Positions 1,214-63,800 of a stretch of DNA of 64,000 nucleotides are shown here, piece after piece (position 1 is the first letter of the stretch; every line of letters starts with the position of its first letter). This stretch comes from Trebouxia sp. TZW2008 (lineage: Eukaryota; Chlorophyta; Trebouxiophyceae; Trebouxiales; Trebouxiaceae). The translations under genes and the position numbers were made by a program. The stretch covers positions 248,001 through 312,000 of the forward strand of contig BDIU01000160.1 in NCBI GenBank assembly GCA_002118135.1, written 5' to 3'. The notes beneath the pieces are model-generated. The model worked only from the letters and a program-made list of their open reading frames with translations, had not been told where the DNA came from and did not search any database.

Positions 1214-4200
1214 ATGTCTCTTAAGACTCAGAACTGTTCATGGCGATCTCAGCTTTACACGCTGGCGCTCCTGTGCTTTCTCATACGCATGGGCGCGCAC
1301 GGCCAGCTGCGGCAGCAGGTACACAGCTACACGTTTCACCAGCAGAACGCGATGACAAAGACATGCTGGTTGAGTTGAGACAGTCGTTCTATGTCTGATT
1401 GTCAGCTTGTGAGTCTAGAGACGTGCCATGCTGACCAATCAGGTCTTGTGCAGGCCCCAAGCTTGCAGCAGCAGGAGCAGTCAGCTACAGACCTGCGAGC
1501 TCAAATCAAGCATGACCTTACCAACCCGAACTTGCATCTGCAGCTTGCTACAGTGTTGCACGGGCTTGATCAGCAACATCCAAACGGTGGCAGGCGTATT
1601 CCTGAGGCAGAAAAGGCATACAGGTTGGCACTTGTGTAGATCTGTGAGCAAGATGACGGTGCCACATGGCCCTGCAAACCTACACTGTACAAAGATGACA
1701 GTGCTGCATGCCTCTGCACAAGTACAAAGAGGAGTGCTATATGTCCTCGCAACGAGGCACTACATAGAAGCGTGTTACACTTGTAATGCAAGTACTGACA
1801 GTGATGCATGCTGGATGTTTGGAATGCCTGCACAGGGAAGCAATCCGGCTTACCTCGCCACAGGCTGGTGTGGGATTGTACACAAACCTGGGTGCCTTAC
1901 TGATGGGTTCAGGCCGCATTGCAGATTGTCTCACAGCCCTGCAGACGGGCATTGATCTCGCACATGAATACCAGCAGACTGATTCAGCCCTGGTACGCTG
2001 TTGCTCAGCATCTGCTTGCTGCCTATTGCAGCTCTCAATCGGTGCTCACCCTGCTGCAACTTCTGTCAAGTGCCTTCAAGTCTACCATCTTCAGATTGCA
2101 GCCTGTTTCAACTCTCGGCCCGTGTGACTTCCTGCTCCAACTCCTGTCATGTACCTGCAAGTTCGCTAGCATCAGATTGCTGTCCGTTGAAGCTTGCAAC
2201 CTTTTGGCAGTTTCCTGCTGCAACTTCTGTCAAGTGCCTGCACGTTGTCAGCATCAAACTGCTGCCGCTGTAAGCTGTCCTAGTTTTCCTGAAACATTTT
2301 GCTGCAGATGCTGCTCAAGGCCTGCTACTGTTGTGTATGCCCACAGCTGTTGCAGTCATGTGCAGCTTGCATGCACCAGCTTGTGTGACGATACTGTTTT
2401 GGTGCTTGAGTGCATGTAGAGCTGTTTGATGGGATGCAGTATTCTGGAGCACTATTCAATCTTGGCAAAGCTTTTGGGATGCAAGGGAAACCAGAGCAAG
2501 CGGCAGAAGCATATGCACAGGCCATACAGGTACTGCAGTCTCAGCTCATCTGTCTGCATCACAAGAAAATGAACACTTTGGTATGCGACATACTTCCACA
2601 AAGCATGGCAAGCGCTATTCACGGCGTTCAAGGTTGCAGTGCAACAAGACCAAGACCATCCGTGAAAGGAAATCTCAGCCTAAATCAGTTGCATTGCTTG
2701 ACAACAACATGAGTGCTTGTCTGCACAAGGCAACATGATATCATTGTCCTCAATGTCCGATACAACTGATAGATTTGCTTGCTACTTTGGTTTTTATCAT
2801 CAGGCAGTCATGGCAACAGCTGCAAGGCTGCTGAAGGAATACACATATTGCAGGCATCACGCAGCATGCATGGCAGCACCTACACCAAGTCACTTGCCTC
2901 CCTCAAGACCTTCACTCCTGAACAGATGGCAGAAATGCAGGAAGCGGCATCATACCTTGCCAACAGTCAAGGTCCGCCCTTTGCGTTCCTTACTGCCATT
3001 GATGGTGCTGATCACATGTACGTTGCATGTCATGCCATTTCTGGCCTCCCTCAAGACCTTCACTCCTGATTAGATGGCAGCAATGCAGGATCACACCTTG
3101 CCAACAGTCCAGGTCTGCCCGTTGCCTTTGTCGCTGTCTCTGTCATTGCTGATGCTGATCACATGTACATTGCATTCTCATGTCATGTCATGTCATGCTG
3201 GCCGTCTGCAAGACCTTCACCCCAGCATAGATGGCGAAAAAGCAGGAAGCAGCTTTATATGTTGCCAAGAGTCAAGGTCTGCCCTTCTGCCTCTGTCACT
3301 GCCATTGCTGATGCTGATCACACGTACATCGCATTGTCATGTCATGTAATGTCATGTCATGTCTGGGTTTGATCAAGATCTTCACCTAAGAATAGATGGT
3401 AGAAATATAGGAAGCAGCATCATATCTTGCCAACAGTCAAGGTCTGCCCTTTTGCTTTGTCACTGCCCTTGCTGGTGCTGGCCATACATCCCCTTGTTCT
3501 TTCAACAAACCATGCAGGCCTGACTCTGTGTGCTCCTGAGAATGCACCACTGCCATCGCTTTCTGTCCTGACCCAGAATGACATCTGCACAAACAACCGT
3601 TGTTGTTGATTGACTCCTTTGCGCTTCATCATATCAGACCTGACATGATGACCTGGCTCTTTAGCTGTGCAACTTACAGCACTGACTCGCCGACAAGTGT
3701 GCCATCTGTGCTGCATGACGCGCAGAAGGGCTTCTGCACAGCAGCCTTGTACAGTATAGTGTGAGCTTGTTGACATAACAGGTGACTTGTGCTGAATGAA
3801 GTGCAGAAGGCCTGTTGCATAGCGAGCCTGAGAAGAAGAAGAGAAAGCGACGGTCTAGGCCTGCTGCAGTGGGCGGGGAGGCACATCAGAAGTGGGCTTT
3901 CCTGACAGAGCTGGATGCTGCTGATCAGTCCTGGCTGCACTTTGCCCTGTTCTCTGCTTACCAAGCTCAGAGGTGTGAAAGCATTCTGTACTGCCCTGGC
4001 CGATGCTTATCAAGCTCAAGAGATGTGACACTGCTCTGTATTGCACTATGGTCTGCTCATCAAGCTCAAGAGGCGACTTCAGAGGCGGACATTTTGGCAG
4101 AGCTGGATGCTGCTGATCAGTCATGGCTGCACTTTGCCCTGTTCTCTGCTTACCAAGCCCAGAGGTGCGACAGCATTCTGCATCGCTTTGCTTGCACTGA

Positions 4201-7200
4201 GTCCGTCCTGTTGTCTGTTTACCAAGCTCACAGAGCCAAAATAATCTGTACTGCCCGGTCCTCTACTGAATAAGGTCAAGAGATATGACAGCACTTTGTA
4301 TTGCCCTGTTCTGAGCTGGTTGCTGCTGGTTGGTCGTGGCTACACTTCGCCCTGTTCTCTGCTTGCCAATCTCAGAGGTGTAAAAGCACTCTGTGTTGCC
4401 CTGTCCTCTGCTTATCACGCTGAAGCAGCAAATTGCCATACGTAGCATTCAGTACGCACACATAATGCACAATGCGCTGCTTCTTGAGAGCATGCGCTGT
4501 CGAGATGCAGAGTGAACGGCCTAAACTTGCAGCAGTCACTGCTGTTTTGACAACAGGCCAGCCTTTACTTGCATCAGCAGTGACAGTCTATGCCACCTGG
4601 GTGCACACCCAGTTGCTGCAAGATATTTGGACGCCCCACCAGCTGGAGTCCCTAGTCCGTTGCTGCCATGTGCATTGCGAAGATCTGCGCAAACCCTGTT
4701 GTGTGCGGCCGCAGCTGCCTGTTATGTCAAATTAGGGTGGCTCAACATGTTTCAGCTGAGCATAATGAGTTTCAGTCAAGTTGATGGGGCATGATGTATT
4801 TCAGGCAATTTGACAAGGCGTGGAAGCATCTGGCAGAGGCCAACAGGCTGCAGCACAGCACAGTCAGCTACAGCAAAGACAACGACAATGTGCTGTTTCA
4901 GGTAAGTTGCTTTGCATATCATCACTGCATGCAGTGCAATACATGCTGGGAAGACTGCATGATCACTTTTGCAGCCAGCGCCATGCTGTCACTGTTTGCG
5001 AGCTACACCAGGTGCATTGTTGTATTGGTTGTTCTGCAGAACGTGCTGCAAAAGGTCATGACATCCTTCTATGGTGTACAGAGCATGCACCAAATGCTTA
5101 CAAGTTTTGCATGAATGACTATGAACATGGCTTGCCTTCAGCTTGACTCGTGCATATTGTCAGAGAGCCTGCTGTATGGCCTACAGAAATAGGCTGAGGC
5201 ATACCTGTCACGCAGGGCACAGGTATCAACCAATCAATCAACCAATCAATCAATCAACTGTCAAAGATGGCACACCGGGCTCCTTCTGCTCGCAGAGGCT
5301 CCTGTTTTGCCCAGCAGCATAAACATCCATTGTGATGTCATTTTGTCAGGAGGGATTGTGCTGTGTTAAGCATGTACCACCGCCAATCGCAGCACTGGTG
5401 ATTTGCAGATCATGCATAACACATTTCCACGAGCTGCTGTACCTCAATCCAGTGACCTATATGACTTGCTGCTGGGTGGGGTAGCCTGCTCAGGTCTCAA
5501 GACCCAGCTAGAGCATTCAAAGGCAGTCAATTGTCTGCACTCAATTTGTGCAGACAGCAGCATTGGTGATTTGCAGATCATGCAGCAAATTTTCCCAAGA
5601 GCTGCTGAGGCTCACTGCAAAGGCCCTCATGACTTGCTGCTGAGTGGAACTGAAGGCATGCATATTGTGACGGATGGCACCGCTGATGTGCATATAGTTC
5701 TGCAAGACTGGTGATCTGCAGATCATGCATGATCTCAGTTAGTTTGCAGATTTTGCAGCAAAATAGTCCAGGTGGTATGCAGATCATGCAGCAAATATTC
5801 CCAAGAGCTGCTGAGGCTCAGTCCAGTGACCCCTATGACTTGCTGCTGGGTGGGGCAGCGGGCTACCCCAGCCCTAGCCCCATCTTTGTGGTTGGGGTAC
5901 CGCGCTCAGGCAGCACGCTGGTAGAACACATCCTGTCCAGTCACCCAGAAGCACATGGTGCAGGTAAATGTCCTGAACCATTGATAGTCTAGGCTGCTTG
6001 TAGTTTCTATTTTTCAGGTAGTCTACTTATCAGCTCGACATGTCAGTGACCATGCCTGCTTTCAGCGCTCGCGGTTGGCAGTCAGCAGTTTAGCAGCTCA
6101 TATACAGCTTCAGCTACAGACCAGACCAAATACGTATCACGTTGTAATGAATGTCGACATTTGCACAACCCTGGTGTCAGCGTTATGTTGCAGACATTGC
6201 TACATTAGGAGTCCTATGAGTCGAAACCATAGATAGTCTATATGATTGTTGCTCAATTAGCGGTTGAGAGATTTTGTGTTATGATGCAGGGGAGGACACA
6301 GCCTTTGCGCCACTCATCCCTGATCTGCTGCAGCTCCTGGAGGGCCAAGGCCAAGTCCAGGTCAGTCTCCTTCTGTACACCAGTGTTATCATGTGGATAT
6401 GGTGCTCACATTGGTGTCACATTGGTGCTCACATTGGTGCTCACATCTTTGTCACACTGATGTTACATTGGTGTCACACTGGTGTCACACTGGTGTCACA
6501 TTGGAGTCACCTTATTGCTCACATCTTTGTCACACTGATGTTACATTGGTGTCACACTGGTGTCACGTTGAAGTCACATTGGTGCTTCAACTGCATTCAG
6601 CAGGAGTTGCAAAGCATGCTGGAGGCATGTGCAACCAGCATCTGAGGTCAAGGCAGCAAATCATCTCAGAGACGCTTTCACTAACGCATGGTCAGCGAAC
6701 TGCATGAGTCAGCATCTTGCTTGCTGAACACAATTGATCAAAAGCTGGATGCATGGCCTGTATGCCTTGCTCGCCATGCAAGCATGCCTACCCTCCTGTG
6801 TCACTGAGCAACTTGCCGCCAGACACAATTACACCTTTTGATGCAGCGCGCAACTGACTGCAGCTGCACATGCAGGGCATTCAAGACCTTGGCAGGCGCT
6901 ATGTTAATGAAATGCAGCTCAGACTGCCTTCTGCACGGCCGAAAGCTACACATGTAGTGGACAAGATGCTACGCAATGTGTGCAATTCCGCCCTTAGGCA
7001 AATCCACAGCTTTGGACGTTGCATCCAGCAATTCGCAGTTTCAAATGCAGGGTATTCAAGACCTTGGCAGGCGATATGTCAATATAATGCAGCTCAGACT
7101 GCCATCTTCGAGACCAGCTGCTACACATGTAGTAGACAAGATGCTACGCAATGTGTGGAACGTGGGCTACATTGCCATGATGCTGCCCAATGCTTGCATC

Positions 7201-8861
7201 ATCCAAGTGGTGAGGCATCCGCTGGATACCGCCTTGTCCTGCTATGCTCAGCCCTTTGAGGGACGTGGTACACCATGGGCTTGGGACTTGCAAGGTATGA
7301 TTCAAGATTTGCATCTTGCCCTTGAGGAATGTGACACTATATCCTGACATCCTTGGTCTTGTCAGATGTGCGTCACACTCATGCTCTCCTGGGCATGAGA
7401 CTTGCTAGGTATGGTCAGGCCTTGATGCCTTGAAGCCTCAGGTCACACTGTATGTCCTGCTAGGCCCAGTCCTTTGAGGATTGCGGTACATCTCGGTCGT
7501 GTGACTTGCAAGGCATGCTACTGTGCACCCTTGCACTAGCCTGTTCGTCTGCAAGCTCGGTCACTGCCGCCCTGTGCTGCAGACATTGCAAATGACACAT
7601 TGTTGGTGGACAAGATCACTTGACCTCTGTGCTGCGCAATGTTAGACAATACCCTGCACTCTCTATGCTGAGAATGTTGCAAATGAACCACTGGTTGTCA
7701 TCCAGATCAGCCAAGACTGGGCCATTCTGACTCTGAGCTGCAGACATTGCAGATGGAATCCTGATTTCTTTTTCATTACAGTCTAATTCTGGTGTGCTAG
7801 ACAAACTCAGCAAGTCTAGCTAGCTGCGTACTGGAGCAGCCAACCGTCTCCATCTTAAACCATTTGCATTGAGCATGAAGGGAGGCGCAGTCCTTACACA
7901 CGGTCGTCTGTCAAGTGTCCCTAGATTTCCCCCTAGCCTTTGATGGTTGCAAAGATAAGCCAACAACAGGCTAAAGCCTCTCTGTGCTGCAGACATTGCA
8001 AATGAGATACTGATGGTCGACAAGATCAGCCAACACTGGGCAAAAGTTTTCCCAGGCAAGGTGCTGCAGGTGCCCTATGAAGGCATTGTGGCAAACCTGG
8101 AGGGCACTGCCAGGGGCATGTTGAAGCATTGTGGCCTGCCCTGGGACGAGTCAGTGCTGCAGTTTCATCAGAACCAACGCACTGTGCAGACAGCCAGCTT
8201 GGCACAGGTCAGGCTTTGTTGTAGCTGCTTCAGCCCTGTGTGTTCACTGGGTGCTTGCACCATTGCAACAACTTTGTTAGTCAGCTGCACCGTTGTGTCG
8301 CTTTTGCTGGTCAAATTTGCCTGCGCAACATATTGACTGTGCCCCTCAGAACATGTTTGCTGGACGACTGCACGATCACAGTGTGTTTGCTGGTCACATG
8401 CGGCCTCACAATGCATTTGCTGGCCAAGACCACCATCACAACCTGTCTGCACCAGCACAAGATGTATGTTGATCAGCGTTTTGCCCTTTATGCAATACTC
8501 ACTTTCACGAGCAGCTGCTGATCAGCTGATCCAGCACACATTGGCCTCAAACGGTTGAACAGTTCGAGCACACTACAAGGCCAGGTCAATGCATGTCCAC
8601 CTTGCCACAGATCAGGTGCACGCCTACTGAACACACTCTTCTTGTGGTGTTCCTTGTGAAACAGATGGCTGGCTAGAGCAGGCATTGGCTGCTTTGCAGG
8701 TTCGACAGCGGCTGTACAAGACATCTGTTGGCAAATGGAAGCAGTATGCCAGCCAGATGCAGCCAGCTGCAGACATGCTGCAGTCCCTCATTTCACAATA
8801 CGAGAAACAATATGCAGTATATCTGAAACTTGACACAGAGTCTGCAAGAAATGAGCTGTGA
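1214..8861 (+). CDS. Secreted TPR-containing sulfotransferase (12 exons, 569 aa)
   Basis: Exons: 1214-1318, 1454-1623, 1836-1992, 2422-2529, 2854-2971, 4083-4164, 4805-4901, 5783-5963, 6290-6360, 7051-7294, 7993-8207, 8700-8861. All phases match and the total is 1710 nt. Residues 1-30 look like a signal peptide ([17 protein letters not shown]). TPR helices follow (e.g. [33 protein letters not shown]). The sulfotransferase domain carries the 5'-phosphosulfate loop [15 protein letters not shown] near residue 316 and the 3'-phosphate motif [15 protein letters not shown] near 418. The end [11 protein letters not shown] is typical of bacterial TPR-sulfotransferases. The family transfers sulfate from PAPS; with a signal peptide the likely site is the Golgi or secretory lumen, and the acceptor (glycan or protein) cannot be told. 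At least five introns contain decayed copies of neighbouring exon edges. The acceptors of exons 4 and 8 are the least certain. Confidence 0.86.
2902..3490 (+). repeat. Decayed tandem copies of sulfotransferase exon 5 end
   Basis: The segment starting CTCAAGACCTTCACTCCTGA at 2902 (real exon 5 end plus donor side) recurs at 3050, about 3207 and about 3372, spaced 148-165 bp. Later copies carry in-frame stops (e.g. the GAACAG of the exon becomes GATTAG) and sequence drift. The copies share the downstream 'GCTGATCACATGTACATTGC' block, so exon edge and intron were duplicated together. Confidence 0.9.
3895..4420 (+). repeat. Tandem copies around sulfotransferase exon 6
   Basis: The block encoding [20 protein letters not shown] occurs near 3905 and, as the used exon, near 4099. 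A degraded copy with stops and substitutions lies near 4308. Shorter versions of the 3' half lie between (about 3985-4060, 4190-4240). Spacing is about 195-210 bp. The copy at 4083-4164 alone has splice phases matching its neighbours. Confidence 0.85.
5230..5262 (+). repeat. (CAAT)n-type microsatellite
   Basis: Short CAATCAATCAAC-like run inside sulfotransferase intron 7. A similar run is present near 53815-53832 in the WDR12 gene. Confidence 0.8.
5400..5863 (+). repeat. Three tandem copies of the acceptor side of sulfotransferase exon 8
   Basis: TTGCAGATCATGCA plus about 80 bp of coding-like sequence ending in GACTTGCTGCTGGGTGG occurs at about 5404, 5572 and 5778 (spacing about 168 and 206); a fragment is also present near 5714. 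Only the last copy continues into the PAPS-binding loop, so the first two are upstream echoes with functional-looking acceptors. Confidence 0.9.
6403..6590 (+). repeat. Short-unit minisatellite (CACATTGGTG type)
   Basis: Imperfect 10-12 bp units CACATTGGTGCT, CACACTGGTGT and CACATCTTTGT are repeated in the intron after exon 9 of the sulfotransferase. They include a longer 73-75 bp higher repeat (the 'CTCACATCTTTGTCACACTG' block occurs twice). Confidence 0.85.
6872..7155 (+). repeat. Echo of the acceptor side of sulfotransferase exon 10
   Basis: GCAGGGCATTCAAGACCTTGG and about 110 bp of coding-like sequence at 6872 match the real exon start at 7047-7051, 175 bp downstream. The upstream copy diverges after 'CTACGCAATGTGTG', before the 3'-PAPS motif, so it cannot replace the exon. 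Confidence 0.92.
7575..8030 (+). repeat. Echoes of the acceptor side of sulfotransferase exon 11
   Basis: GCTGCAGACATTGCAAATGA and following bases occur at about 7577, in a shorter form at about 7737, and at the used exon (7987-7993 onward). Another degraded piece (AATGTTGCAAATGAACCACT) is near 7668. Upstream copies hit stops within about 20 codons. Confidence 0.85.
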
Positions 8862-9805: not shown

Positions 9806-12800
9806 TTATTTGACATTCTCTTGACCTGTACTTTGAGCCCAGTAATCCTGTCCCAGGCGCCACAGGACTGTGAACATCAGACCCTGCAGGCCATTGGCCA
9901 GAATCTTTGTCTTGAGGCCTCGGCCGAACAATCCAAGCAGCCCATCCTTTGCTATCACCTCCTGTACTCAGCACAGACCACGGTGAAGGGGCATGGAATA
10001 CAGCATTGTAAACAGCTGCTTCTTCTTGTATATCCAAGGATGATGCAGCAAATTGCATTAGACAGGTGTTCTCCTTTCCCGTGACATGTCCCAGCATGCT
10101 GCTTTGTAACTTGCTGTCACAAGCAGCAATGCAAAGCAAATGCATCTACCATGGATAGCTCTTTGCCTAAACTGAATGATACAAGGTTTTGATCAAGCTT
10201 AACACATCATTGATTCTTTTCAAGCTGCAGTACTCGTGACTGCATGCTATGCATGGACTCACAACATACACTTTGCTAAGGCGTACGCTTTGCAGTTGCA
10301 TCACAGGACATCACCAGACCATCCGCACTTACCCTTACTACTTCAGGGTATGTCATTGGAGTTGTGGCAGTTTGCTTGCTGGTCTTGACCACTCTGACAG
10401 AGTTGGAGCAAGTGTCTGAAATAGCTGAAGCTGAGAAGCCGATGACAGCACTACGCAGAAGGCGCCTTGGCAGATCATCATACTGGGGCAACTTCTCATT
10501 CAAAAAGTTGTACTGCAAAAGCACAAACATTGTGAGTCCCTGTGTATAGCAATTATGTGTACTGTGCCCTGACAAATTATGCACAAGGATATTTTTGTGG
10601 CCAGACGTACCGTCGCTGCGACGCACACCGCTCAAACCAGGAGTCATTTGTGATCAGCTGGGCAGCTTCTGACATATTCGCAACAGCAAAGATAGCCTAT
10701 CAAGGCTCATGCACCTGGCATGGAGACGCCCAAGATAGGCCACACACAGCTAGTGCTTGCACTAGAAGGCATAATCTACCAAAACAAGAACACGTGACTT
10801 GGACCCAGACACGCTTAGCACCTGTGCTAGAATGTAGGGTGTGACTAGTACAGGGGCATGTGACAAGTGCATACCGCAAAGCACTAGGCGTCGTGGCCCA
10901 CAGGTGCTTCAACATTGAGACTGTTGTTATCATTGAGACTGTTGTTCATGAATGCAGACGCGCAATCACTGACAAAAAGGGTTGTAATCAACACAGCAGC
11001 ATATAATGAGTGCATAATGTGATGCTTCGGGCATGACTGCCCACATGTTTCATGATTCACGTGCAAGAGCATATAATCATAGGGGTATGTATAAGTGCGC
11101 ATTATAAGAAACCAGGGATACTGCCCCAGTATAGGTTACATCACTCAGACTGCACGTGCAAGCATGTGTGATCATCATCAATCTGGGTGCATAGTCATCG
11201 TTGTACCGTGAAGAACCAGGGGTAGTGGCCAACAAAGGTGGCTGCAGAGGCTGCCAGGGCGCCGTGATACAGCACAGGAACGCCACCAGTCTTCACCTTG
11301 GCCACCAAGGCTGGGAACCCCTTCTTACCCTCCACCTACACCACAACACACAAAATGCTTTTTGTCCCTGCACGTTTGTGACACCTGTCATAGTCCATTC
11401 ACGGAGATGTTACGGGTCTTCACCTTGGACACCAGGACTGGGAAGCCCTTCTTGCCCTCCACCTGGTCCCCATCACACAGATACTTGTTACTATGTTGTC
11501 TGTTTGCTAGATGTATATCTGTTGGGAAATTGCACCGTACATGCTTGTATCTACCTAACTCATAGATGTCCTTTCTACACCAGAACAGGAATGCCGCCTG
11601 TGTCCAACTGAGACACCGGGGCTGAGAACCCCTTCTTACCCTCTACCTATACTCCAACATACATGTGGGCCCCAAACACAGAAATGTTTTCTAGATCTGC
11701 ATGTTTGTGTGAAAGCAACAGACAAATGTCTACATCATTTGGCGCCATATTGAAACCTCTGCAAGTAGAAGCAGCTTGAGATACCTGTGACAAATTTGCA
11801 AACGATGTCTGTTCAAGCATTTGCTTGCTGGTGAGTCTTTCTGGATTGTTGTGTGAGAGTATGGGGTCTTGAACTATGCTTGCAGCAACCTTAGTCAACA
11901 GCATGCATGCATGCCACACGGACGCTACAAAAAGCTGTGTTTCTGAAGGCTTCATGACTGACATCGGGGCAAGAACCAGATCTAGGCTAGAGCAGTTGTC
12001 TATGGCCTAATTCTGGCATGCACCCCAACATCAGTCACACACGCTTAAGAGACACAGCTTTCTGTAGCGCAAAACATCACCTCAAAAAGGCACTGCATGT
12101 TGTTGATCTGCGTTTATGCATGTGCATGCTGTGTCTCTGTCAATGAGAGCCAGCAGCAAAACACAATACGCTGGAGGGGGGTCGCAAGGTGAACTGCTGC
12201 TGTTGTTGGGAAGCTATCCTGCATACAAGCCTGCATATGTCTCACCACACATGCCAGAACAGAAGCACAGAAGACAAGAAGTCCACTTTGTCAGGCGACA
12301 TCACACATCACACAGGCCCAAGTTACAAGCTGCCAACTGACAAAACCACTGGCAACTCTTGCTGTGCATAACAGGAAAGCATAGGGAGCACATCAGGGTG
12401 TGCATTTGCTGGCATTTGTCCCAAAGTGCATGTTCCGCCATATATGCACACAAGGCCAGGACAGGACCTGGGCCACACACTCCGCACCTGTGCTAGAGTA
12501 TGTACACTGAACTCGAACCCCAACTGACTGTGTAACATGCACATGTCCACAGTCAACTAGTCCATCTACCCTGCTGCATGCGCAAATCTCTAAACTGGTG
12601 CTGTTTGTTCGCCAGCACCTTTGCTAGAGCGTGTACTGGACTATGACTAACATTTATAAACAGAGAGATTCTGAGCATCGCACCTGCATGATTGTCTTGG
12701 TGGCGTCCACAGGCATCAACACGATCCTGAACGTTGCGGCAGCAGCAGAAGCCACCACAGTCTTGAGACCGACATTCAGGTTGGAAGTCATTTCATAGCT

Positions 12801-14717
12801 TTCCAGCAAAGAGAGGGTGCCGGCATTTGCTGCGGTGTCTCCAAACCTGCTCAATGGTCCCTGCATGACAACAAAGCATTTGCTAACAACATGCATATGC
12901 ACAGGTCCACATCTGCTCAATCATCCCTGCACGGCAAGACACATGCAGCTGAGACCAATGTTCAATGGCTAAGTGCATCTGCGGCCTGCCTAATACCTCT
13001 ACATCAGCATGATGCATGTGTAAAGACAACAGAAAAATTGCATGTTAGCAGGTATGCATTGGCTGCAGTGTCTCTAAATCTGCCCAAAGGTCCCTGTGTT
13101 GCTAGAGTACAGGGTCCCAGCACACATGTATGATGCACAGATGCACAGCAGCAGCAAATGTAGACGGCAATAGCTTTGCACTGGGCTGTTTGCATGAGAG
13201 GGTCTGTGCTGAATCTGGCATGGCAGCTTGACATTCAGCGGGGCAGTGGCAAAAGCCCCCGTACCTGAATGAGGGCAGGGGCCAGACCACGGTAGAACCG
13301 CACAACACCACCATCCTTGTACAGAGTCTTAAAAGCGGTGGTCATTGTGCTGCCGTGCCGATACTGGTAGTTGACAGTTGTCCGCAACCACATGAGGGAG
13401 ACCACTTGAATACCCATGGCCGCCATACCTGCCACACACACCTTGATGTCTCTCATGTAATCTATGTACACGTTTGCATGAAATATGCTTGAGCTGTCTG
13501 ACATGTGCAGGTGTACCCAATGGATGCTGTGAGGCCCAGTAACAGATACTGGTAGTTGTGAATTGTCCGCGGCCACATGAGAGAGCACACGTGCATAGCC
13601 ATGGCCGCCATACCTGCCACACAGACCTTGATGTCTTATATTTGAACATGTATTAAGAATCATTACACTATTCCAACATACGTTGCTACGTATGTGTGGC
13701 ACTTGCCAGGCAGGCTTGTTCTTTGTCAGGATAAGGTCTTCTGACGTTCAACTGATGGAAGTCGGACAAAGCGATGTGATTCTAGATCTGCCTAGGTTGA
13801 CCTGGAGGGTTTGACTGTGATGTATCTACAAGTGCACCTGAATCTATGCTTGAGCTATGTGAAATGTGCAGGTGTATTAAAATCATGCAGTAAGGACAAT
13901 ACGCCATTGGAAAGGAGGAATAACATAGCTTATGAACTGCTGCATTGAATGAATCTGGCAGCTTATCCAGATAGCTGAGAGCCAAATTCAATTGCATTGT
14001 GCACACTGCACAGCAGTTTGCTGCCTTTCAAAGCAGCATATGGCAGCAGCAGCCAGATGATAGCTGACATTGTGTCAGCTTGCACAGGGAACATGTCATG
14101 GCGTTGCAGCTGTGAAAGGTTGAGTGCAGCTTATCCAAACCGCAGCCGTGCCTGCCTCGCTTGTGAGCACAGATAAGGACATGTTGAAGCATGGCGAGCG
14201 TGTGCAGATGCGCTGAAATGTATCTCCGATACAGCGACTGCTCGCGACGCCGCTGCTACAGCCCAAAGATTAGATCACCTGGAATTCCGCCTCCCAAAGC
14301 TTTCTTCCCTGCTCGCTGCAGAACAGCTGACAAAGCTTCAGGCTCCTTTGCCTGATACAGGGTGGGGCATGGCAGTGACGCTAGCTCCTGGGGTCGAGCT
14401 GGTTGTGCAGGCGATTCTGCGTGCATGCTTGCGAACGAGGTCGCAACGCCGCCCCTGGCTGCCCTGAGGCTGCGCACAGCCGCATTGTCGAAGGGTGAAG
14501 CAGCGTCTGAGAAACCACGGGGAGCCGATTCGTAAAGTGACGCAGCGCAGGAACTCCAAAACAGTTTTGCAGAGCTGTGTGTCGGCACGGCAGGCAAAAT
14601 TGTCGCAATTTGCGAGCAGCCTATCACGTCAGGGACCCTCATACTGAACAGACCTTGCGCAAGGTCAATGCCGAGCAGCAACGGCTGCTTGAAGCTTTCC
14701 AAGACAGCGCCCGGCAA
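9806..14717 (-). CDS. Mitochondrial carrier (SLC25) family protein (6 exons, up to 414 aa)
   Basis: Exons on the minus strand: 14717-14279, 13428-13265, 12860-12684, 11335-11207, 10512-10333, 9961-9806. Phases match and the total is 1245 nt. Carrier features seen: LGGGIPG / [15 protein letters not shown]; a [28 protein letters not shown] matrix loop; [18 protein letters not shown] (the P-x-D-x-x-K signature); [29 protein letters not shown]; and [17 protein letters not shown] near the end. This is a divergent plant/algal SLC25 subfamily with FGDTAAN and GHYPWF blocks; the substrate is unknown. The N-terminal about 120 residues are low in conservation. Translation might start at the internal ATG 14426-14424, so the exact start is uncertain. 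Introns 1, 2 and 3 contain echoes of the following exon's 5' edge. Confidence 0.9.
10713..12650. repeat. Dispersed repeat family C, local cluster
   Basis: Related words of the type GGACTTGTGCCACACRCA and CTAGCACATGTGCTAGAG occur near 10720-10775, 10795-10850, 12450-12525 and 12607-12645. Other copies lie near 16548-16612, 32753-32812 and 33521-33585, and on the opposite strand near 13685-13720 and 61590-61625. Most are intronic. The element edges cannot be fixed by eye. Confidence 0.5.
11403..11651 (-). repeat. Two echoes of carrier exon 4 acceptor side
   Basis: The reverse-strand exon start (GTGGAGGGTAAGAAGGGGTT at 11335) is echoed with boundaries near 11462 and 11646 (spacing about 127 and 184 bp). 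The copies keep about 40-60 bp of exon and then diverge. Confidence 0.9.
12840..13110 (-). repeat. Echoes of carrier exon 3 acceptor side
   Basis: The real exon begins at 12860 (CAG|GGACCATTGAGCAGG). A short degraded copy has its boundary near 12926. A longer copy has its boundary near 13093 and keeps GGACCTTTGGGCAGATTTAG and GACACTGCAGCCAATGCA. Confidence 0.88.
13365..13640 (-). repeat. Echo of carrier exon 2 acceptor side
   Basis: GGTATGGCGGCCATGG and about 80 bp of exon recur with the boundary at 13613, 185 bp upstream of the used boundary at 13428. The flanking intron words (CATCAAGGTCTGTGTGG type) are duplicated too. Confidence 0.9.
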
Positions 14718-28500: not shown

Positions 28501-28760
28501 CAAGTGAGGCAACACTGCTGTTCATTTTGCACCAGCGCTGCATAATGAAGCAACAGGAAAGAAAACGCTATGCTGCTATGCTTGTCAAAGAGAGCCTGTG
28601 TGGGTAAAAACAGCTCGACTTGCATGACAGTGTACAGCTGCTGATGCAGAGCAACAGCAAGGGAGTGAGGGCACAAGGCATGCATACACTTGTTGTGACG
28701 GCTGCTAAACCCTTGTGATTGAGCATGCCTGCAACTGATGTGCTACTGCCACTCGAAGTG

Positions 28761-28798
<38 letters not shown>

Positions 28799-33117: not shown

Positions 33118-33162
33118 ATTAAGGAGGAACCTGAGCCGTGGAGGCAGGGTCAGCCTAGAGTG

Positions 33163-35631: not shown

Positions 35632-37123
35632 ATGGCCAAGGGCACAAAACGCAAAAAGGCCGGAGTCGGCGTCGACTTTCGAAGAGTCAAAAGCAAAGTC
35701 GGCAAAAAGCTTCCGAAAGCGCAGAATGAGACCGATATGACCTTCAAGTCTAGGTCCATCAACTTGCCTGGACAGAGCGTAGCAGAAGACAAATCTGGCC
35801 TGGCTGTGAGTCAGCGAAAATTGACCACGCAGGTAGAGGCATGCACACAGCAGTACTCAGCATATATGCACATACTTTGCTGGGACAATGCCAGACACAT
35901 GTGCCACACGCCACAGGAACTTCTCAACCAGACCAGCCACTACAGTGAACGCGTGCGAAAGGATGCTCTGACAGGACTACTGCAAGTGTTTCAGCAACAC
36001 CCAGAGGAAATGCGCAAACAGGTCAGGGCAAGCATGCAACATGATTGCATACACAGCGGCATCCACCTGCCCTCCATTGGCAGCTGTTTCCAGTGCAGAT
36101 CAGCAAAGACTTGCCACTTGTAACAGTTGAGTCTTTCTAGCAATCTCCATCCAGAATACACAAAATGCAATATGCCTTCTGTAATTGAGTAATTAATTGA
36201 GAGCATGGATCAATTGAAGTGCAGTGTGCATTGTGGATTGTGCAAAGCGCCAATCCATATACGCGATGAACAAGTATATTACAGTATCAATCACTTGTGC
36301 GGGGAGTATAGTGTTTCACTCAATGTTGCATGCAGACTGGACCCTTGCCTGGCAAGTTGGCTGAGTTCATCAAAGACATGGACACATCATGTTAATGCAT
36401 ACTGTGACATGCAGACCGGACTCCTACTTGGCAAGTTGGCTGAGTGCATTGGAGACACAGACAAAGCAGTCAGGGCAGCGTTGCAGGAGCTGCTGTCCAG
36501 TGTGGTGTTGCCACAGCTCAAAGGCCCTAGTCTTGGTCCCTTTGTGCCCCTTGTCATGGCTCACTTGTTCAGTGCACTGACGTCCATGGTTGACGCTGTG
36601 CGGTGAGTCCTTGGGGTCATCAGTTCCACGATACAAGATGCACGTCGCATTATGGCTGTTACTGTGTGTCAGGTCTTGGTTTTGCACTGATGCTCACGCC
36701 AATATAGTCAGCAAAAAGCAGCTGAAACAAGAGCCCACAAGCTACAGTGGTCAACTTCAAGGCGTAGTCATGTCTCTCAATCTTCACTGTCACTTCAACT
36801 GGCTGCATTAGTAATAGCCTTTTCAGCCAGTACTACTCAAAGCAGTAGGTCGCTACAATTGTCAAGGCTATCTCTCTCTTTTTGCATCCTTTCGACAAGT
36901 ACTGTGAAGGCTTGACAACTTTGAAAACACAGCCCTCTTGATGTGTTTGCAGATCAGGGGCATTGGACTTGTTGGATCTCTTCATGGAGGCTGCTCCTCA
37001 ACAGGTGATGCAGGGCTATCTGGAGCCTGCCCTGCGCCATTTTGTGGAGCTGCTTGCGCCAGCTCGCCGTTCCTCTTCTGTCTCTGCCCATTCAACTTCC
37101 TCAATGCTCAAGGTCTGCTGCTC

Positions 37124-37156
<33 letters not shown>

Positions 37157-37630: not shown

Positions 37631-37670
<40 letters not shown>

Positions 37671-51200: not shown

Positions 51201-54200
51201 CTGTAGATGATGTCGTGATCAGGCCACGCCACGCCTGACACGCACTGAGAGCGACGTTGCATTGCAACACCATGCAATGCCATGCAAGCATGAACAGCCC
51301 TTGACATGAGATCAAAAGCAGTTGCGAGCAGGTCTCACAGGAACTCACCGAGTGGTCCCAAGAGCAGCTGTAAATGACATCCTGATCAGGCCACGCCACG
51401 CCTGACACGCACTGAGAGTGACCTTGCATCTGGGCTTTTGCAGCTTCCTGCAGAGGCCCTTCTGCCACTGCAGAGCTTGCGTCTGGCGTTGATGCCAGCT
51501 TGCGCTTCTTGCTAGTGGCTTTGGTTGCTGTAGCAGGGGCCATGGCCGCTTCCTCTGATGCAACAGCCACCTCTTGACCTGCCGTGCAATGGAAACTGTC
51601 AACATGACTGCAGCTTGCAAGCATTCTGTGGGTAGTGCATGAACAGTCATGCCAGCTTGCGCTTCTTGCTGCTGGCCTTGTTGACTGTAGCAGGGCCCAT
51701 GGCCTCTTCCTCTTATGCAACAGCCACCTCCTGACCTGTCAAGCAACAGCCAGGTGTGTGTTCAACTGCAGCTTGCAAGCACTGCATGGATGATGCATGA
51801 ACAGTCCAGTGGAAAGTCCGATTGCCACTGTAGCGCTTGCATCTGATACTGATGCCAGCTTGCACTTCTTGCTACTGGCTTTGTTTGCTGTAGCAGGGGC
51901 CATGCCTGCTTCCTCTGATGCAACAGCCACCTCTTAGTCTGCCAAACAAACAAAAGGGGGGCTGCAACACAACTGCAGCTTGCAAGCATTGCACGGGTGG
52001 TGCAGTAGCAGTCCAGTGGAAAGCTGCTATACCACTGCAGAGCTTGCATCTATTGATGCAAGCTTGCATTTTGTGCCGCTGGCCTTGTTTGCTGTAGCAG
52101 GGGCCATGGCAGCTTCCTCTGATGCAACAGCCGTCTCTTGCCCTGTTGAGCAATCAAGATATCTGGTTCAACTCATTTGCGGAAATCGAAAAGCTTCTCC
52201 TCTTTGGGATGTAGCGGTGTAGGGGCAACAGGAGCATTCCTTCCAGATACTCCCCTATCATGCAGCATGTAGGGTTGCCCAATGAGTCAAAGGCAAATGT
52301 GGGAGGCAGCCCAAAGCAAGAGGTACACAGCACATTCCTACCTGTACGTCAAAGGTGAAGATTGCCATCCCAAGATGCACTGGCAAAGGCACTGCCAGAG
52401 GGGCTCGCTGCAACATCTTCAACAGCAACAGTGTGGCTCGTGTCCTTGCTACAAAACTAGACAGAACAGCACACTACAACAGGTTCAAGTGCACAAGTAA
52501 ACCAATGACATGACTCTCACCTGTGCGCCAAAGCTGCAGGTTGCCGTCCCAAGATGCACTGGCAAAGATGCTGCCAGAGGGGCTGGCTGCAACATCTTCA
52601 ACAGCATCAGTGTGGCCCTTGTACACTGCCAGGCACTTAGCACTCTCAGCCTGGCCAGAAAGTGAAGCTGTTCCCAAAGCTGGCATGGACCACAAGCGAA
52701 TGACATGGTCTTTGCCCGCTGAAAGGGCTAAGGACCCTTGAGAGGAGGGCAGTTGCTGAACAGCGTTTATGCCCTGCTTGTGCGCCTTGGTACTGTGTTT
52801 GAGTTGACCTGCATCTGCAACGCACAAGGAGATCAGCTTGATTGCTGCAGGCAATGCAATGCGTTGACGTCACAACTGCAGCGACTGGTCTGCATTTGCG
52901 GTGCATAGCAAGAACTGGAACCGTTGCAGGCAAAGGGTCGCTTCAAAATGTCGGCTGTATGTCATTGTGTGCTTGCTTGTGATTGGTTCATCAGTTTGAT
53001 GGCAGGCAGAGGGGTGAATGCAAGTCAAAGTTGCTAGGCAGACTTGTCCAGAATGTATTGCATGCATGCTGACCTCAAAGTTTGTCATGCAACTGAGTTT
53101 GCATGTGAGTAAGCTGCTTGCTCCAGTATATACCTAGCTGGGCCTGCTGAGCCTGTCTAGCATGCGTCTAGCATGAAGCTGCACCAGTGTTGCAGGAGAC
53201 AGCTTGGCATATGTATATATTGGCAGGAGCTGGTGAGGTATGACATGCCGTCTACGTCGTAGGCAAGGCAGTGTGTCCTACTCATACAGTAATCTCTCGA
53301 TATAAGGACACTCAATATAAGGACATTCTTGATGTAAGAACAATGCAAATGGGGACCAAGCACTGCATTCTGACTACAGTGGTACTTTTGAGTAAGGACA
53401 ACTTGAGATAAAGACATTTGTCTCGATAACCAACGCAGTCATTATATCAAGAGACCACTCTATCAGCAAATTGCGCGATGCGCACATGGCGCTCTGAGCC
53501 AAACTAAGGCAAAATATGACTAGGAAGGTTGCCTGTCTGTCTCAGCCCAGTGAGGCCCAGAAAAGCATCAGACATTCATGCTGCACAAAGTTTCACTGGC
53601 AATGTGATTGTCCTGCAAGCTCAAGCAGTCTCACCAGTCCATGTGCGCAAAATGCCGTCATAAGATCCAGTCAAAATGCTGTGGCCGCGGCTGCCATCTA
53701 CAGCGCTGATCCTGCATATGCAAATGATTTTACATCACATGTTTCTTTGATCGTTTCCATGACATGAGCTGAAGAGCTGCAGAGTCGCAAATTGCAAGGC
53801 AAAGCAGCTTTCAATCAATCAATCAATCAACTCTACTGTCCTTGGGACCCAACAGGGGGGTCAACAGACAACAGCAAAAATGAAACAATGCAAATCACAC
53901 ACAAACGCTTTGTATTGTAACAGCTTTTCATACCAGTCGTCATGAGGCAGTTGTCTTTTCTTCTGAGGTGGGACCACAGCTTTGAAATACTCAATTTGAA
54001 GCACAGATTCCTGCACAGGTACACTTATGTGAGCACAGTATTGGTAAAATGCACTGGAGCTGCAGATTGTTGAGCGGCTTGGCTAGGCTTACTGTTGAAA
54101 CATTGTGGGCAAGCAGAAACTTGTCAAGGGGCTGGCGCAGAAACTCCCCAAGAACCAAGAAATCAAATGGCTGAACAGGGTCTGTAGCAAAGAAACAACA

Positions 54201-57810: not shown

Positions 57811-60800
57811 ATGAGATTCAAATTACGGCACACATTGCTGCTGCTGTGCGTGCTTTTAGCACGAGGAGCAGCTGCGCAAGCTCAGGCCGGCGGGTCCAGT
57901 GTTGTTGACAGCATAGCTGATTCCGATGAAGACTTTGGTGACGCTCTAGCTGGTACAGCCTCCACAGCCACTGATGCTGTTGGGCGTGCTGCTTCCAACA
58001 CAGCCCGTGCTGCTTCAGCAGCAGCAGATAGCATTGCCAGCCACACCACAGCTGCAGTCTCAGCATCCGCAAGTAAGCTCAAGCTGATGTTAGCTGAAGA
58101 AAGCTCGGCAGGTGTCTGTGATGCTGTTGTTGCGCAGCACTAGATTAACATTGACTTTTCGTGCAGATGACGAGCCCGTGCTGGAGGGCAGTGCGCTGGA
58201 TGCGGCTGTGAACAATAATGCAGATGCACAGGCTGAAAAGTTTGACCCAGACACAAAGGTTGTTGCTCAAATCATAGACCAGGAGCCTGCTGCTGAGCTA
58301 GCAAATGGCGATGCTGATCTGTCCACAACAGGTCAGACAGTGCCAGCCCTGAGCTCTATGACAAAACACGTCCTCAATACACAAGGGTTGCTGTCAGATG
58401 AGTTTTACATGCTGTCAAATAAGTTTTGTATGCTGGCACAGCTTGATCAGTGCTTGTGCAGTTAAGAACGCTTTCGATGGCTGTGTCATGCACTCATGTC
58501 GCCAAGAGCAGTGCTGCATGTGCATGCAAGGTCTAAATCTTGATCAAGTACAGGTTTTCAGAAGTCAACATTGACAACTTCTACATGGCATCTAGATGAC
58601 ACCTTTGAGTGAAACCAGGTGTTTGTGAAGATGACATTGACCGATTCTGCCTGGATGTCATGCCTGGGCTTGGGCGCCTTGCAATTTGCCTGTCAGATCA
58701 GCTGAAGGAGCAAGAAAAACAGGATTTCACTGGCACAAACGTCAGCAGGGTCTGCAGCCAGGAGTTGGACAAGTTCAGACAGAACCAGACAGACAACATC
58801 AACCTGGACTTGCCTCTTGGTAAGATCATTGCACCACACCATACTCAACTCTCTATGCTTTGTCCCTTGTCAAGCTGGGTGCAACAAGGTGGTTGCAACA
58901 AAGTGAGTGATCTGAAATCAAAAGAAGTGTTCCTCTGCCACGCTGCGTGTACATCATTGTTACAGCAGTACCTGGCCCATCAAAGGCAAGTGACAACATG
59001 TTGAGGTGTGTTGCAAAAGAGACAGTGCGGTGAGATTGGACGGACTGGTGCTGACACTCTTGCTGTTTGCTGCAGCTCAAGCATGCAATGACGATGTACA
59101 GAAGTTGTGTGGCAGATTGGCGGCAGGTGAATCAGCCCTCAGCTGCCTCAGGTAATCTTGCAACCTACTCAAGTCATGCCTGCATCTCATGCATCTGGCT
59201 GTGGGTCCATGCTATGACATCAGTTGTGGGCACTGTTTGCAATCGTCTACTGTAGATTGATACAGATCAACAGGAACACCACCTGTCTGAAGCAGCACAC
59301 GGCCTGCTTGCTTTTCCTGAAGCTAGTGTGGGTCATGCTACAAGGCTGTGGCTGAATACATAGAGAGCGTAGCCTGACTGTAGTGTGTGATGCCTGCCAA
59401 AGCATTGGATGCCATCATGCTCTGTGTTGTCATACCTGTAGTGCGTACTCATTGCAGCTGAGGCAGTGCAGACCCAAACCAAAGTGCTCATCTTGACACA
59501 TCATGAGCACAAGCTTGCAGAGGCTGCTGTATCATCATCATTGTTTTTCACGTTTTACATACTGTTAGTGCAAGGGTACATACTGGTAGCATTCTGGGGT
59601 ACATATGACTGGCATACTGTGGTACATACTTATAGCGACAAGGCAGCTATTGATGTCCACATACTGGTGACGTTCTGGGATACATACAACTGGCATACTG
59701 TGGTGCATACTGGTAGCGACAAGGCAGCTATTGATGGTCAATTGGTGACACTGCAGGAAGCACAAAGACGATGTCTCAGGAGACTGTTCAGCTGAGATCT
59801 TCAGGCGGCAGGAGAATGCAGCTGATGACTTCAGACTGGACAAGGAGCTATATGCTGCATGCGAGGTGTGTCTGCTGATGCCATTGACTTTGAAGCTAAC
59901 TTGGCCAGCTCTATGCTGCATGGTTTATTGTAGTACAACAACAGGGGCTGCCATTGGAGAAATAGCACATTGTGCCCTTGTGGGCAGTGTGTTTTGGATG
60001 GTTTTGCGCAAACACCCTGATGGTCAGAGCTGAGGACACTGCATTGCTAGGCATGCATGCCTGTGTGGAATGCCCTATTGTTGTACTCCTGTGAGGTTTG
60101 CTGTTACGACTGTCTTCCACATACATGCCAGGATGTCCACGAGACCAAAGAGATTGCAGAGCTGACAAAGCAGCTGTCTCCTCGCACTCAACCCAAGCAA
60201 TCAGGCTGCCAGACATTGCAGTGATGTCTACAGCAGGCAGCAAGCTTCATCTTGGCAATCTGCGTTGACTATATGCGTTTACAATATGCAGAATCTGCAG
60301 CTGCTTTGTTCCAACGCAGATGTTAGGTGTGTTCCCCTTGTTTGCAGGCAGATGCACAGACAGTAGGTAGAGCTGTGGATCCTCTTGGAGGCAACATTCA
60401 GGAGTACGTCAGGTCTCAGCGGCTGTTGCTCAGCTACGACTGCCCTGTTCACCATGCAAATGCACAGGCGGCGCACAGTCTTTACCGCAAACCTATTTTT
60501 TAGGTTTCCTCCCTGTGCAGGCAGATGCCGAGACAGTATGCAGTGCTGTGGACCCGCCTGGCAGCTGTTCAGGCAGACTGTATTGGTCTTCTTCTCACCG
60601 CATCGCCTCCTTTGTACAGGCGGGCGCTCAAACGGTGTGCAGTGCTGTGGACCCACATCGGGGCAAGGTGCAGGAGTGCCTCAGGGCTCAGCGGCCCTCT
60701 TTGAGCTACAAGCTGTGTTTGCACTCATCATTATCACTACCATCACCATCATCATTCCCTTTGTGCAGGCGGATGCCCAGACAGTCTGCAGTGCTGTGGA

Positions 60801-63800
60801 TCCACATGGCGGCAAGGTGCAAGAGTGCCTCAGGTCTCAGCGGCCCTCGCTGAGCTACGACTGCCAGGTGCAGCTGTTCAGACAGGAGGAAGAAGACAGC
60901 CAGGACCTGCGCCTCAGCATCCGCCTCTTCCACAAGTGCTTCAATGATAAGATTCAGGTCTGCAGTAGAATGTACACATACCAAGAGCATCTTTTGAATG
61001 ACTTTGTGCATGCCAGCTCTCACCTCAACGGCCTCATAGCATGAAAGTAGCGTCCCACTATTCTGTTATATTGCATCAGGCCTTCAGTACTGTGTGAATG
61101 ACGCAACATCACTTGCACCTTTGCTTGATCAGTCTGTAATTGTGACATGCATAAAGACAAGCAGCATCGCAACAAAGCTGACCCTCATATGATGATCACA
61201 GCGCTGTGCTTATGATAATAGCATTCTGATGCTCGTGCTCATGCTATGATGTTCATGTCGCTGATTTGCATTTGGATTGCAGTTCTGTGGCGATGTGCCA
61301 CCAGGCAATGCGAGAGCTAAGGAATGCCTAGAGCAGCACCGAAATGAAGCAAACTTCAGCAGGGATTGCAGAGAGGAGTTGGAGGGCATGATTGAAGCCC
61401 GCTCACGTGACTTCAGGCTAGATCCACAGTTGAAGCGGCAGTGTGCAAAGGACATTGAGATGCTGTGCCCCTTGACGTCATTTGAGGTTGCAGACCTTCC
61501 TGACGACCATGCAGAGGTCATCACGTGCCTGCAGGACTTCAGGTGATAATAATAATAATAATAAAAAATGATTACATGTTCCAGCATCTGCTGCTAGGTA
61601 TGTGTGGCACAAGTCCAATCTTCCATACACTTCAGGTGATATGTCTGGCTTGTCCAGCGACAGTTGCTTGGTGACTCTACATACCTGGCAAGGCCTTTGA
61701 GCCTGATTAGCATGCGTTTGATAGATAGCTAGACAGATAGATGTGACACGCTGTCATGCATTTGCTGCTTCCACTATGTTGGATTGAGCATCAGCCATGA
61801 CTACTGTGTGCACACCAAACTCAGCCAAGCACAGACACAATCACTTTGCATTCATCAGTCACTTTTCAAAAGTTGTATTGAGCCTCTGCAACAGCAGTAG
61901 GATCAGGTGCTGTCTGTCATTTGCTTTGTCCCAGATGATTGTTGGGAATGCATGCACCAGCTCTTCTGGGAGTACTTGACAGCATATTCACTTTCATTGA
62001 CAAACTTTCAGACGCATGTCTGCTGTGCAAGCCATGCATGACTGCCCATCCCCAATTGCTGTGGGCTTCAGGACCTCAAACTTTATGCCATTCCAAACCT
62101 GACAATTCATAACAATTACGTGCATAACCTGCTGCTACATATGTGTGTTGCAGGGATGAGATAGCCAACCCTCAGTGCAAAGCCAGGGTCACCAAGACCA
62201 AGGAGCTTGCAGCGTCAGACATTCGCTTTGACATTCCCTTAGCAGAGGCCTGCTATGAAGACCGACGGCAGTTCTGTGCTGGCATCGCACCAGGCTCAGC
62301 TAGAGTCATCAGATGCCTACAAGACAGGTGCATTCACCAACTGCTTCATCCTTGTTCAGCGCTTGCTGCACACTGAACCTGATGCCTGTAAGATAGGTGC
62401 GCCTACCGAATGCATTTCCTCTTGCTGACTATTTGCTGCACATCAAAGCTTGATGGCAACATTGCCAGTGTCGCGCTGACATCAGTCTCAGCCAGGGTCA
62501 TCTGATGCCAGCAGCCCACCAGTTGCATTTGACTTGATACCCGTTTTTTGTTATCACAACTATTGAGGGCAGCTTGTTCTTGGATGCTATGCTGTGCTGT
62601 GCTGTGCTGTGCTGTGCCGTGCTGTGCTGTGACAGATTATTATAGCCAGGTTCATGAGATGCTGCAAGACAGCTGCACCTGCCAGCCTGCACAGAAATGT
62701 GTGCGCCCTGGCTGCTTCTGTTCACAGACGCCCCTGTTGTGATGCCCGACAGCATGAAATTCCTTTGATTGTGCAGCCGGCGGGATTTACGGCCAGATTG
62801 CTCAGCGCAGCTGTTTGACGAGGAGGTCAACATGGCTGAGTCCATTGACTTCCAGATTCCCATGAAGGCGGCATGCCTGCGAGAAATTGGCACCTTCTGC
62901 AAGAACACGCCACATGGTCATGCACGAGTCATCAGGCAAGTTCTCTGTTTTGTATTGATACATTGTTGATATTGTCTGTTGACCTCCCTTCTGGGTCCCA
63001 AAGACAGTAAAAAAGACCACATGACCAGAACAATAGAGCGTGTTGATGCTTTTAATTGGAGCTTGCCGCGGCCTGAGTCAGCAGATGGTACTTGCAGATG
63101 CAGAGCACTATGAGAATTTATGCAAATGCTGAGGACGGCCCTGCTTGATCTTGAGGGCTGCATGTATGAGTATGAGCAAACAGCAAACATGGCCTGATCT
63201 GTACTAGCTCAGGCACCTCAACAAAAAGTTTTTCAAGACTGAAAAGTTGCAAGTGCTGTTGTGGTTGTGGTTCACCTTTGTGGTATGCTGCATGGGCATT
63301 GACTTACCTGCACAGTTTTTGTTCTGTATGACAACTGCTGGGGTTTGAGGCAAAGCATTGCTTCGCACAGGCCATCTTCACTAGTCACATGCGACTTGCA
63401 TCAAGAGTGTACTCAGCTTTGCTGATCATGTTGCCTTTGCAGCCACAGCATGCGAGAGCATATGTAGTTACATGCTCTCGTATGCTGCATACAATGTGTT
63501 GTTTGCTAGTTCATCAGCATGTAAAGCAGCGCAGCAGAAAGTGTCACGGCGAAATGTACTACAGGCTTGGTTGCTGCAGACGCTACATGCTCTCGCATGC
63601 TGCATACAATTTGCATACAACTTGTTGTGGGCTAGTTCATCAGCATGTAAAGCAGCCCAGCAAATAGTGTCACTGCAAAATGTGGTACAGGCTTGGTTGA
63701 TGCAGACGCTACATGCGCTGAAAGGCATGCTGCCCACAACTTGTGTTTGGTCAGTTCATCAGCATGTGACCAGCCCAGCTTGTATTGCTTTCAACTAGGC

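Follow-up and report, generated by a model that had tools for sequence, protein, structure and literature searches.

The exon-edge echoes treated here, which are partial and decayed copies of an exon edge inside the adjoining intron, were found in a 64-kb stretch of the genome of Trebouxia sp. TZW2008. Their closest described counterpart is a single published case, a tandem duplication that crosses an intron-exon boundary of the RdRp gene in potato (PMC4974935). There, as here, the duplicated unit holds both intron and exon sequence. The potato case, however, is one recent event that produced a new spliced intron, whereas in Trebouxia dozens of older, often multi-copy sets lie inside introns. 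In the model of intron gain by tandem genomic duplication (Rogers; Hellsten; Gao and Lynch; via PMC3443670 and PMC4974935) a local duplication is likewise tolerated through splicing, but there an exon segment with AGGT provides both splice sites, while in our case the junctions existed beforehand and no seam copy was found in the 49 curated introns. Introns in tandem repeats with dual-specific splice sites (PMC10809524) also hide repeat expansion by splicing; in contrast, the copies described here are partial, decayed and sit within introns. Introners (PMC9860276) share with our system the mass change of intron content, but they insert themselves genome-wide, whereas the copies in Trebouxia are local. 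Short tandem duplications from break repair in rice, in a study reported to deal with insertions of 10-1000 bp (Vaughn and Bennetzen, via PMC7407515), and CST/Pol alpha fill-in duplications in mammalian cells (PMC8355091) are local direct tandem duplications as well and may represent candidate causes. The passages concerned draw no link to exon edges.

A genome-wide pattern of exon-edge duplication was not found described among the titles and abstract openings listed, and a word search in three Trebouxia genome papers (PMC12712428, PMC11523091, PMC11126685) returned "intron" 1, 0 and 1 times. An earlier annotation of this DNA, made from its letters alone and referred to below as the original prediction, had stated that it knew of no named class of this kind. 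This is appropriate for the genome-wide pattern but overlooks the potato gene: the type of event is known from that single case, and for its scale in Trebouxia we found no description. Introns enlarged by local tandem duplications straddling exon edges are a real and unusual habit of this genome, both in the analysed stretch and in most of the stretches sampled elsewhere. In a lichen photobiont they constitute, at the scale of the genome, a route for intron lengthening and for the build-up of spare splice sites and partial exons. Comparison of the decayed exon halves with their conserved partners dates the duplications, and the origin of intron sequence becomes directly testable via sister strains. 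For gene predictors the echoes are a warning, since they resemble exons.

Local repeats in the window and beyond

The window, i.e. the whole stretch of 64 kb that was analysed (C155:248001-312000), belongs to a genome assembly of 68.5 Mb in 527 contigs. Alignment of the window to itself by BLAST yielded 100 direct high-scoring segment pairs (HSPs) at a spacing below 2.5 kb, which form 22 clusters and cover 13,229 of the 64,000 bases, and a single inverted HSP at a spacing below 2 kb. One Markov-simulated control (n = 1) with the dinucleotide make-up of the window gave no local direct HSPs. Many of the arrays were also detected by Tandem Repeats Finder. Within the window, 4 of 104 direct HSPs are more than 5 kb apart. 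The copies are direct, arranged head to tail and close by, with almost no inverted ones, as expected for local tandem duplication. Dispersal of the introner type was checked with one 401-bp piece, which in the genome matched only itself, its neighbours and a simple repeat elsewhere.

Sixteen stretches outside the window (L008-L023, 153 kb in total) served as a sample. Local direct repeats are present in 14 of them and cover up to 37% of the sequence; a single local inverted repeat occurs there as well. In L010 and L020 (10 kb each) predicted exons are present and no local repeats were found. Taking outside stretches and window together, identity lies at 70-87% for 266 of 297 HSPs and reaches at least 90% for 12. 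Judged from these values the duplications are mostly old, unless young ones were lost in assembly. An old burst, or a loss of young tandem copies in assembly, may underlie the rarity of such copies.

Exon-edge echoes in curated introns

Gene models were obtained with a gene finder trained on reading-frame seeds, which recovered the splice consensus CAG/GTRAG for donors and TGCAG/G for acceptors. The program misplaces some edges, e.g. the WDR12 donor at 51349; its scored exon candidates were curated by hand, and the main counts rest on the resulting 7 genes, 56 exons and 49 introns. Roughly 13.5-15.5, 28.5-35.5, 41-48.6, 53-58 and 63-64 kb of the window, with several intron-only arrays, lie outside the curated genes. 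The spliced WDR12 product is partial (309 residues, with the 5' exons outside the model). Its residues 27-308 align to WDR12 of a solved structure, and over its full length it reaches an identity of 78% (C0004) and 71% (C0010) to Trebouxia proteins and of 79% to a metagenome protein, in keeping with a position of the genome in or close to Trebouxia. Pfam supports the sulfotransferase exons (Sulfotransfer_3), exon 26489-26658 (ADH_zinc_N) and exon 61283-61542 (Cys_rich_FGFR). Lone FH2 and WD40 exons fall under the curated Pfam cut-offs, and a search of a single FH2 exon against solved structures gave no match. When three formin exons are joined without the echoes, one FH2 match results (profile positions 66-190, 75.3 bits). 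For the genes at 35.6-41 kb (IPI1/TEX10-like by eye) and 9.8-13.4 kb (carrier-like by eye), the three exons tried gave no Pfam match.

Acceptor-edge echoes of the downstream exon occur in 15 of the 49 curated introns (13 spanning the acceptor and 2 just short of the cut), and donor-edge echoes of the upstream exon in 9 (6 spanning and 3 just short); 2 introns contain only internal repeats. Doubtful cases are an acceptor match of 41 nt upstream of exon 3807, a donor set within CTG-rich sequence at 37113-38053 and a weak donor match at 18182-18477. Although the partner was allowed on either side within 2.5 kb, it is located upstream in 26 of 26 acceptor-spanning matches and downstream in 18 of 18 donor-spanning ones. 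Hence both the existence of the copies, set against the empty control, and the side on which they lie agree with the original prediction. The same holds for the number of copies per edge, which ranges from 1 to 8 with the maximum on the donor side of WDR12 exon 51578-51349.

Other details of that description had to be adjusted. The exonic part that was copied measures about 21-116 nt instead of 40-110 coding bases. Adjacent copies are ~66-249 nt apart, and the range of 145-170 nt that had been called frequent applies loosely, to 19 of 48 hand-tabulated spacings. The distribution is broad and not sharply nucleosomal, and it lends no support to the suggested link to nucleosomes. Introns are indeed filled by exon-edge copies, but intron-only arrays exist too (e.g. 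2016-2276, 41292-41693, 44135-44515 and 59578-59736). A hand tally of the window comprises ~17 acceptor sets, ~9 donor sets and ~8 intron-only sets (8/34); not counted in it are the sets at 33188 and 40826, the repeats in coding sequence (30.7-31.3 kb) and further clusters of low complexity. The median length is 709 nt for introns with edge copies (n = 17, about a third of those curated, two doubtful sets excluded) versus 357.5 nt for the others (n = 32), and the WDR12 intron carrying eight donor-edge echoes extends over 1,787 nt. Classical exon duplication, or mutually exclusive exons, was rejected for the sets examined on account of the partial extents, stops and frameshifts; the uncurated set at 33188-33452 may be an exception.

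Origin of the echoes

The echoes are probably relics of many small local tandem duplications with a unit of ~70-220 bp. A duplication across an acceptor would place the intron end and the exon start twice in a row. Only splicing to the last acceptor would preserve the protein, and the first copy would thereby turn into intron. Across a donor, the spare copy would come to lie downstream, as only the first donor keeps the protein intact. Of the spare copies, which would then decay neutrally, the exonic half would stay identifiable for the longest time, as selection preserves its counterpart in the exon. Further rounds of duplication would finally give rise to arrays and long introns. Judged from this geometry, selection presumably causes the intron-side placement, since only the last acceptor or the first donor restores the old mRNA. 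As selection accounts for the orientation rule, a special mechanism is unneeded, and intron growth by these duplications needs no new type of machinery. At the molecular level, the duplications most likely arose when staggered or paired nicks were filled in and their ends joined, or when replication slipped. The fit of spliced products built from one copy to WDR12 and to the FH2 domain counts in favour of relics of tandem duplication.

The decay of the copies was counted with a narrow flank, because a wide flank let several echoes align to themselves. Mismatches between exon and echo amount to 0.146, 0.117 and 0.242 at codon positions 1, 2 and 3 (50 echoes). An in-frame stop is found in the aligned part of 13 of the 50 echoes, and of the 12 gaps in the alignments 11 cause a frameshift. 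The surplus copies are partial and bear stops or frameshifts, much as had been predicted. The mismatch pattern fits neutral decay of the echo together with synonymous change in the exon.

Concerning the extent of the duplicated unit, 32 acceptor and 18 donor echoes were compared without gaps to the real sites. At the acceptors, identity is near background beyond a distance of ~17 nt upstream from the AG. This drop is sharper than simple neutral duplication predicts. A gapped comparison of the intronic flanks between real exon and nearest acceptor echo, with unrelated acceptors as control, resulted in z values between 0.0 and 7.0 in each of the 15 sets, with a Stouffer value of 9.8. For donor flanks of echo pairs the Stouffer value is 17.8, and in two arrays, formin-19932 and WDR12-51578, identity between the last linkers amounts to 79-86%. 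Overall, the duplicated units include intron sequence as well as exon; this holds as a mixture and not necessarily for every unit, and it is weaker at donors. The homology of the acceptor flanks implies tandem duplications across pre-existing junctions. This part of the original prediction is thereby upheld, while the anchoring at junctions that it added is not established, as shift tests disagree (see below). An RNA intermediate ending at the branch site, which the drop at -17 suggested, was not adopted because the gapped comparison showed the flanks to be homologous overall.

Several observations weigh against an origin by simple tandem duplication followed by neutral decay. Mismatches between echoes retain the third-position excess (0.203, 0.180 and 0.271); copies of different age could produce it, and so could weak constraint. 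Between echoes, 5 of 17 acceptor flank pairs fall below 0, and the Stouffer value of 9.8 is owed to a few strong arrays. The flank of the first donor echo reaches z values of -1.8 to 5.9 in 7 sets, with a median of 0.7 and a Stouffer value of 3.2. Furthermore, 25 of 32 acceptor alignments end at most 20 nt from the acceptor, whereas simulations matched to the exon-echo identity extend a median of 55-64 nt into the intron, a reach that drops to 29-44 nt only if indels are far more numerous. The flank thus appears to be older than the exonic half in many sets. Candidates for this difference are short intronic parts, more indels in introns and conversion from the exon. Finally, young copies are so few that fresh break points are unreadable; among 9 alignments at 89% identity or more, few as these cases are, one clean 56-bp duplication with a 4-base overlap was found.

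Comparison with relatives

Intron DNA of relatives was read through predicted proteins that run across introns. In P0040, the stretch between the parts matching the same two WDR12 exons consists of 100 codons (300 nt) in one open frame, compared with 1,787 nt in our window. Against three-frame translations of the WDR12 exon edges, this stretch and eight flanks of 32-72 codons from P0058, P0060, P0063 and P0065 scored within shuffled controls. One of these nine stretches had a score that only 2 of 100 shuffles reached; an echo of the exon itself scores 97-146, which is far higher. No relative was matched when the translated donor-echo array of WDR12 served as query in a protein search. P0121, on the other hand, possesses two head-to-tail 50-residue (150-nt) copies of the unit repeated here at 39534-40080. 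The array before the 40081 exon is thus common to a relative, and the WDR12 arrays, for which the content differs, look particular to this lineage.

Alternative explanations

The strongest competitor is an anchoring of duplication at junctions, with exon-intron boundaries, and acceptors above all, as hot spots owing to chromatin, transcription-coupled breaks or an RNA intermediate. We regard it as rather unlikely. Families touching a predicted exon number 41 of 60 outside the window and 21 of 36 inside, where one random unit per family would give 24% and 25%. Shifting whole families, the 41 outside compare with a mean of 28.5 and were reached in 1 of 500 shifts; inside, the mean is 19.1 and the 21 were reached in 155 of 500. 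Two-copy families behave in the same manner (19 of 32 vs 12.4 outside, 7 of 500 shifts; 7 of 16 vs 6.8 inside). The hot-spot reading gains from the excess of acceptor over donor families, which is 20 to 12 in the outside loci (p 0.22), 12 to 3 in the window (p 0.035) and 15 to 9 in curated introns, and from the sharp drop of acceptor-echo identity described above. Repeats are also scarce in introns without edge echoes (3 of 32) and almost absent from intergenic stretches (0 of 10 in the window and 1 of 11 in the outside loci), although such stretches are few.

In simulations, uniform duplication gives ~50% intron-only families when nearly all are detectable. Once detection bias is included, the share declines to 38%, 17% and 9% at a neutral divergence of 0.20, 0.24 and 0.28 per lineage, because intron-intron copies fade faster. 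Uniform placement with better detectability of edges can therefore come close to the ~8 of 34 in the hand tally if neutral divergence is ~0.2 or more per lineage. Simulated acceptor matches at 0.20-0.28, however, are ~75% identical, lower than most real ones, which weighs against uniform placement, and at most 3 intron-only of 27 would be rare under it at a divergence of 0.20 (0.0023). It also has to be considered that the gene models are self-made and that the curated genes omit parts of the window rich in intron-only arrays. Since the null models disagree, the anchoring counts as unproven. The boldest reading, in which a process linked to junctions lengthens introns from their ends, for example through splicing-associated breaks, exon chromatin or an intermediate whose end lies close to the branch site, ~17 nt from the AG on its upstream side, is likewise rather unlikely.

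Concerted evolution is improbable. It assumes old echoes whose exonic halves are refreshed from the constrained exon by short gene conversion while the linkers decay, and it would explain why exonic halves are less diverged than the flanks predict. Echo-echo divergence, however, exceeds exon-echo divergence, and clearly homologous linkers match the identity of the exonic halves (formin 19932 and WDR12 51578 arrays). In addition, ~80% identity over ~90 nt is probably a poor substrate for gene conversion.

The original prediction further suggested decoy acceptors or poison exons; as functional elements these would be maintained by selection. Of 29 acceptor echoes, 23 were scored as retaining the AG (three of the remaining six are an artefact of an exon start set at 60770, one base too far), the GT is retained in 16 of 17 donor echoes, and the third-position excess between echoes would be in line with a function. 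At 14% divergence, though, ~74% of the dinucleotides are expected to persist anyway, and the restriction to aligned cases inflates the figure. Many echoes contain stops or frameshifts, and such copies are missing from the WDR12 intron in a relative. We found no positive evidence for this proposal; the copies look mostly neutral, and a selected function is very unlikely.

The Rogers model, in which an intron arises when an exon segment with AGGT is duplicated in tandem, might be considered, as CAG/G is common to the acceptor and donor consensus of this genome. It was rejected for the curated introns and is highly improbable: a copy across the spliced exon-exon seam is present in 0 of 49, in contrast to one-sided copies in 14 and 9, and the acceptor units contain intron sequence overall. 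An assembly artefact, conceivable with 527 contigs and an unspecified assembly type, is practically negligible given the 70-87% identity of most HSPs and the 50-residue tandem unit in the contig-predicted protein P0121 of a relative.

Individual exons and other repeats

Table 1. Exons of the window and the echoes of their edges in the neighbouring introns.
Feature	Position	Strand	Echoes and remarks
TPR/sulfotransferase gene exon, predicted	2854..2971	+	three donor-edge echoes downstream, 3041-3151, 3198-3315, 3363-3480; without homology confirmation
predicted exon	3807..3972	+	donor-edge echoes downstream, ~4070-4212, ~4313-4425
sulfotransferase exon, Pfam Sulfotransfer_3	5783..5963	+	acceptor-edge echoes 5397-5490, 5565-5658
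sulfotransferase exon	7051..7294	+	acceptor-edge echo 6860-6985; donor-edge echo 7453-7517
exon	7993..8207	+	acceptor-edge echoes 7566-7618, 7659-7722, 7731-7765
exon, gene carrier-like by eye (no Pfam match, two exons tried)	11207..11335	-	acceptor-edge echoes 11416-11479, 11581-11663
exon	12684..12860	-	acceptor-edge echoes 12906-12937, 13056-13096
exon	13265..13428	-	one acceptor-edge echo near 13545-13636
formin exon	19932..20107	+	four acceptor-edge echoes 19432-19931, spacing 116-126; donor end uncertain (GGG/GTGA)
FH2 exon	20831..21009	+	two acceptor-edge echoes 20523-20792; one donor-edge echo 21071-21146; gives the FH2 match when joined with the two exons after it
last modelled exon, zinc-type dehydrogenase/quinone oxidoreductase-like gene	28349..28503	+	acceptor-edge echoes 28172-28246, 28001-28027
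exon	36415..36602	+	one acceptor-edge echo 36329-36384
exon	38855..39018	+	acceptor-edge echo 38684-38772; donor-edge echoes 39103-39175, 39247-39304
exon	40081..40375	+	four acceptor-edge echoes 39534-39646, 39666-39796, 39816-39923, 39959-40042; array common to relative P0121
WDR12 exon	49394..49561	-	one acceptor-edge echo 49585-49689
WDR12 exon	51349..51578	-	three acceptor-edge echoes 51640-52160; eight donor-edge echoes 50080-51265
WDR12 exon	52521..52814	-	one donor-edge echo 52340-52443
exon, gene with Golgi GLG1-type Cys-rich repeats	60769..60957	+	acceptor-edge echoes 60332-60444, 60514-60565, 60609-60709

Besides the echoes, the window contains repeats of other kinds. An open frame at 30726-31342 (+) comprises ~14 diverged 42-bp repeats and is a probable protein-coding minisatellite, unlike the intron arrays. 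An 11-bp minisatellite, TGGTGTCACAT, is located at 6400-6586 in the intron preceding the 7051 exon. Runs of CTG/CAG lie within or beside predicted exons at 37035-37739, 22512-22557 and 28762-28855. The uncurated 132-bp repeat at 33188-33452 (+) may contain two near-complete copies of the predicted exon 33206-33303.

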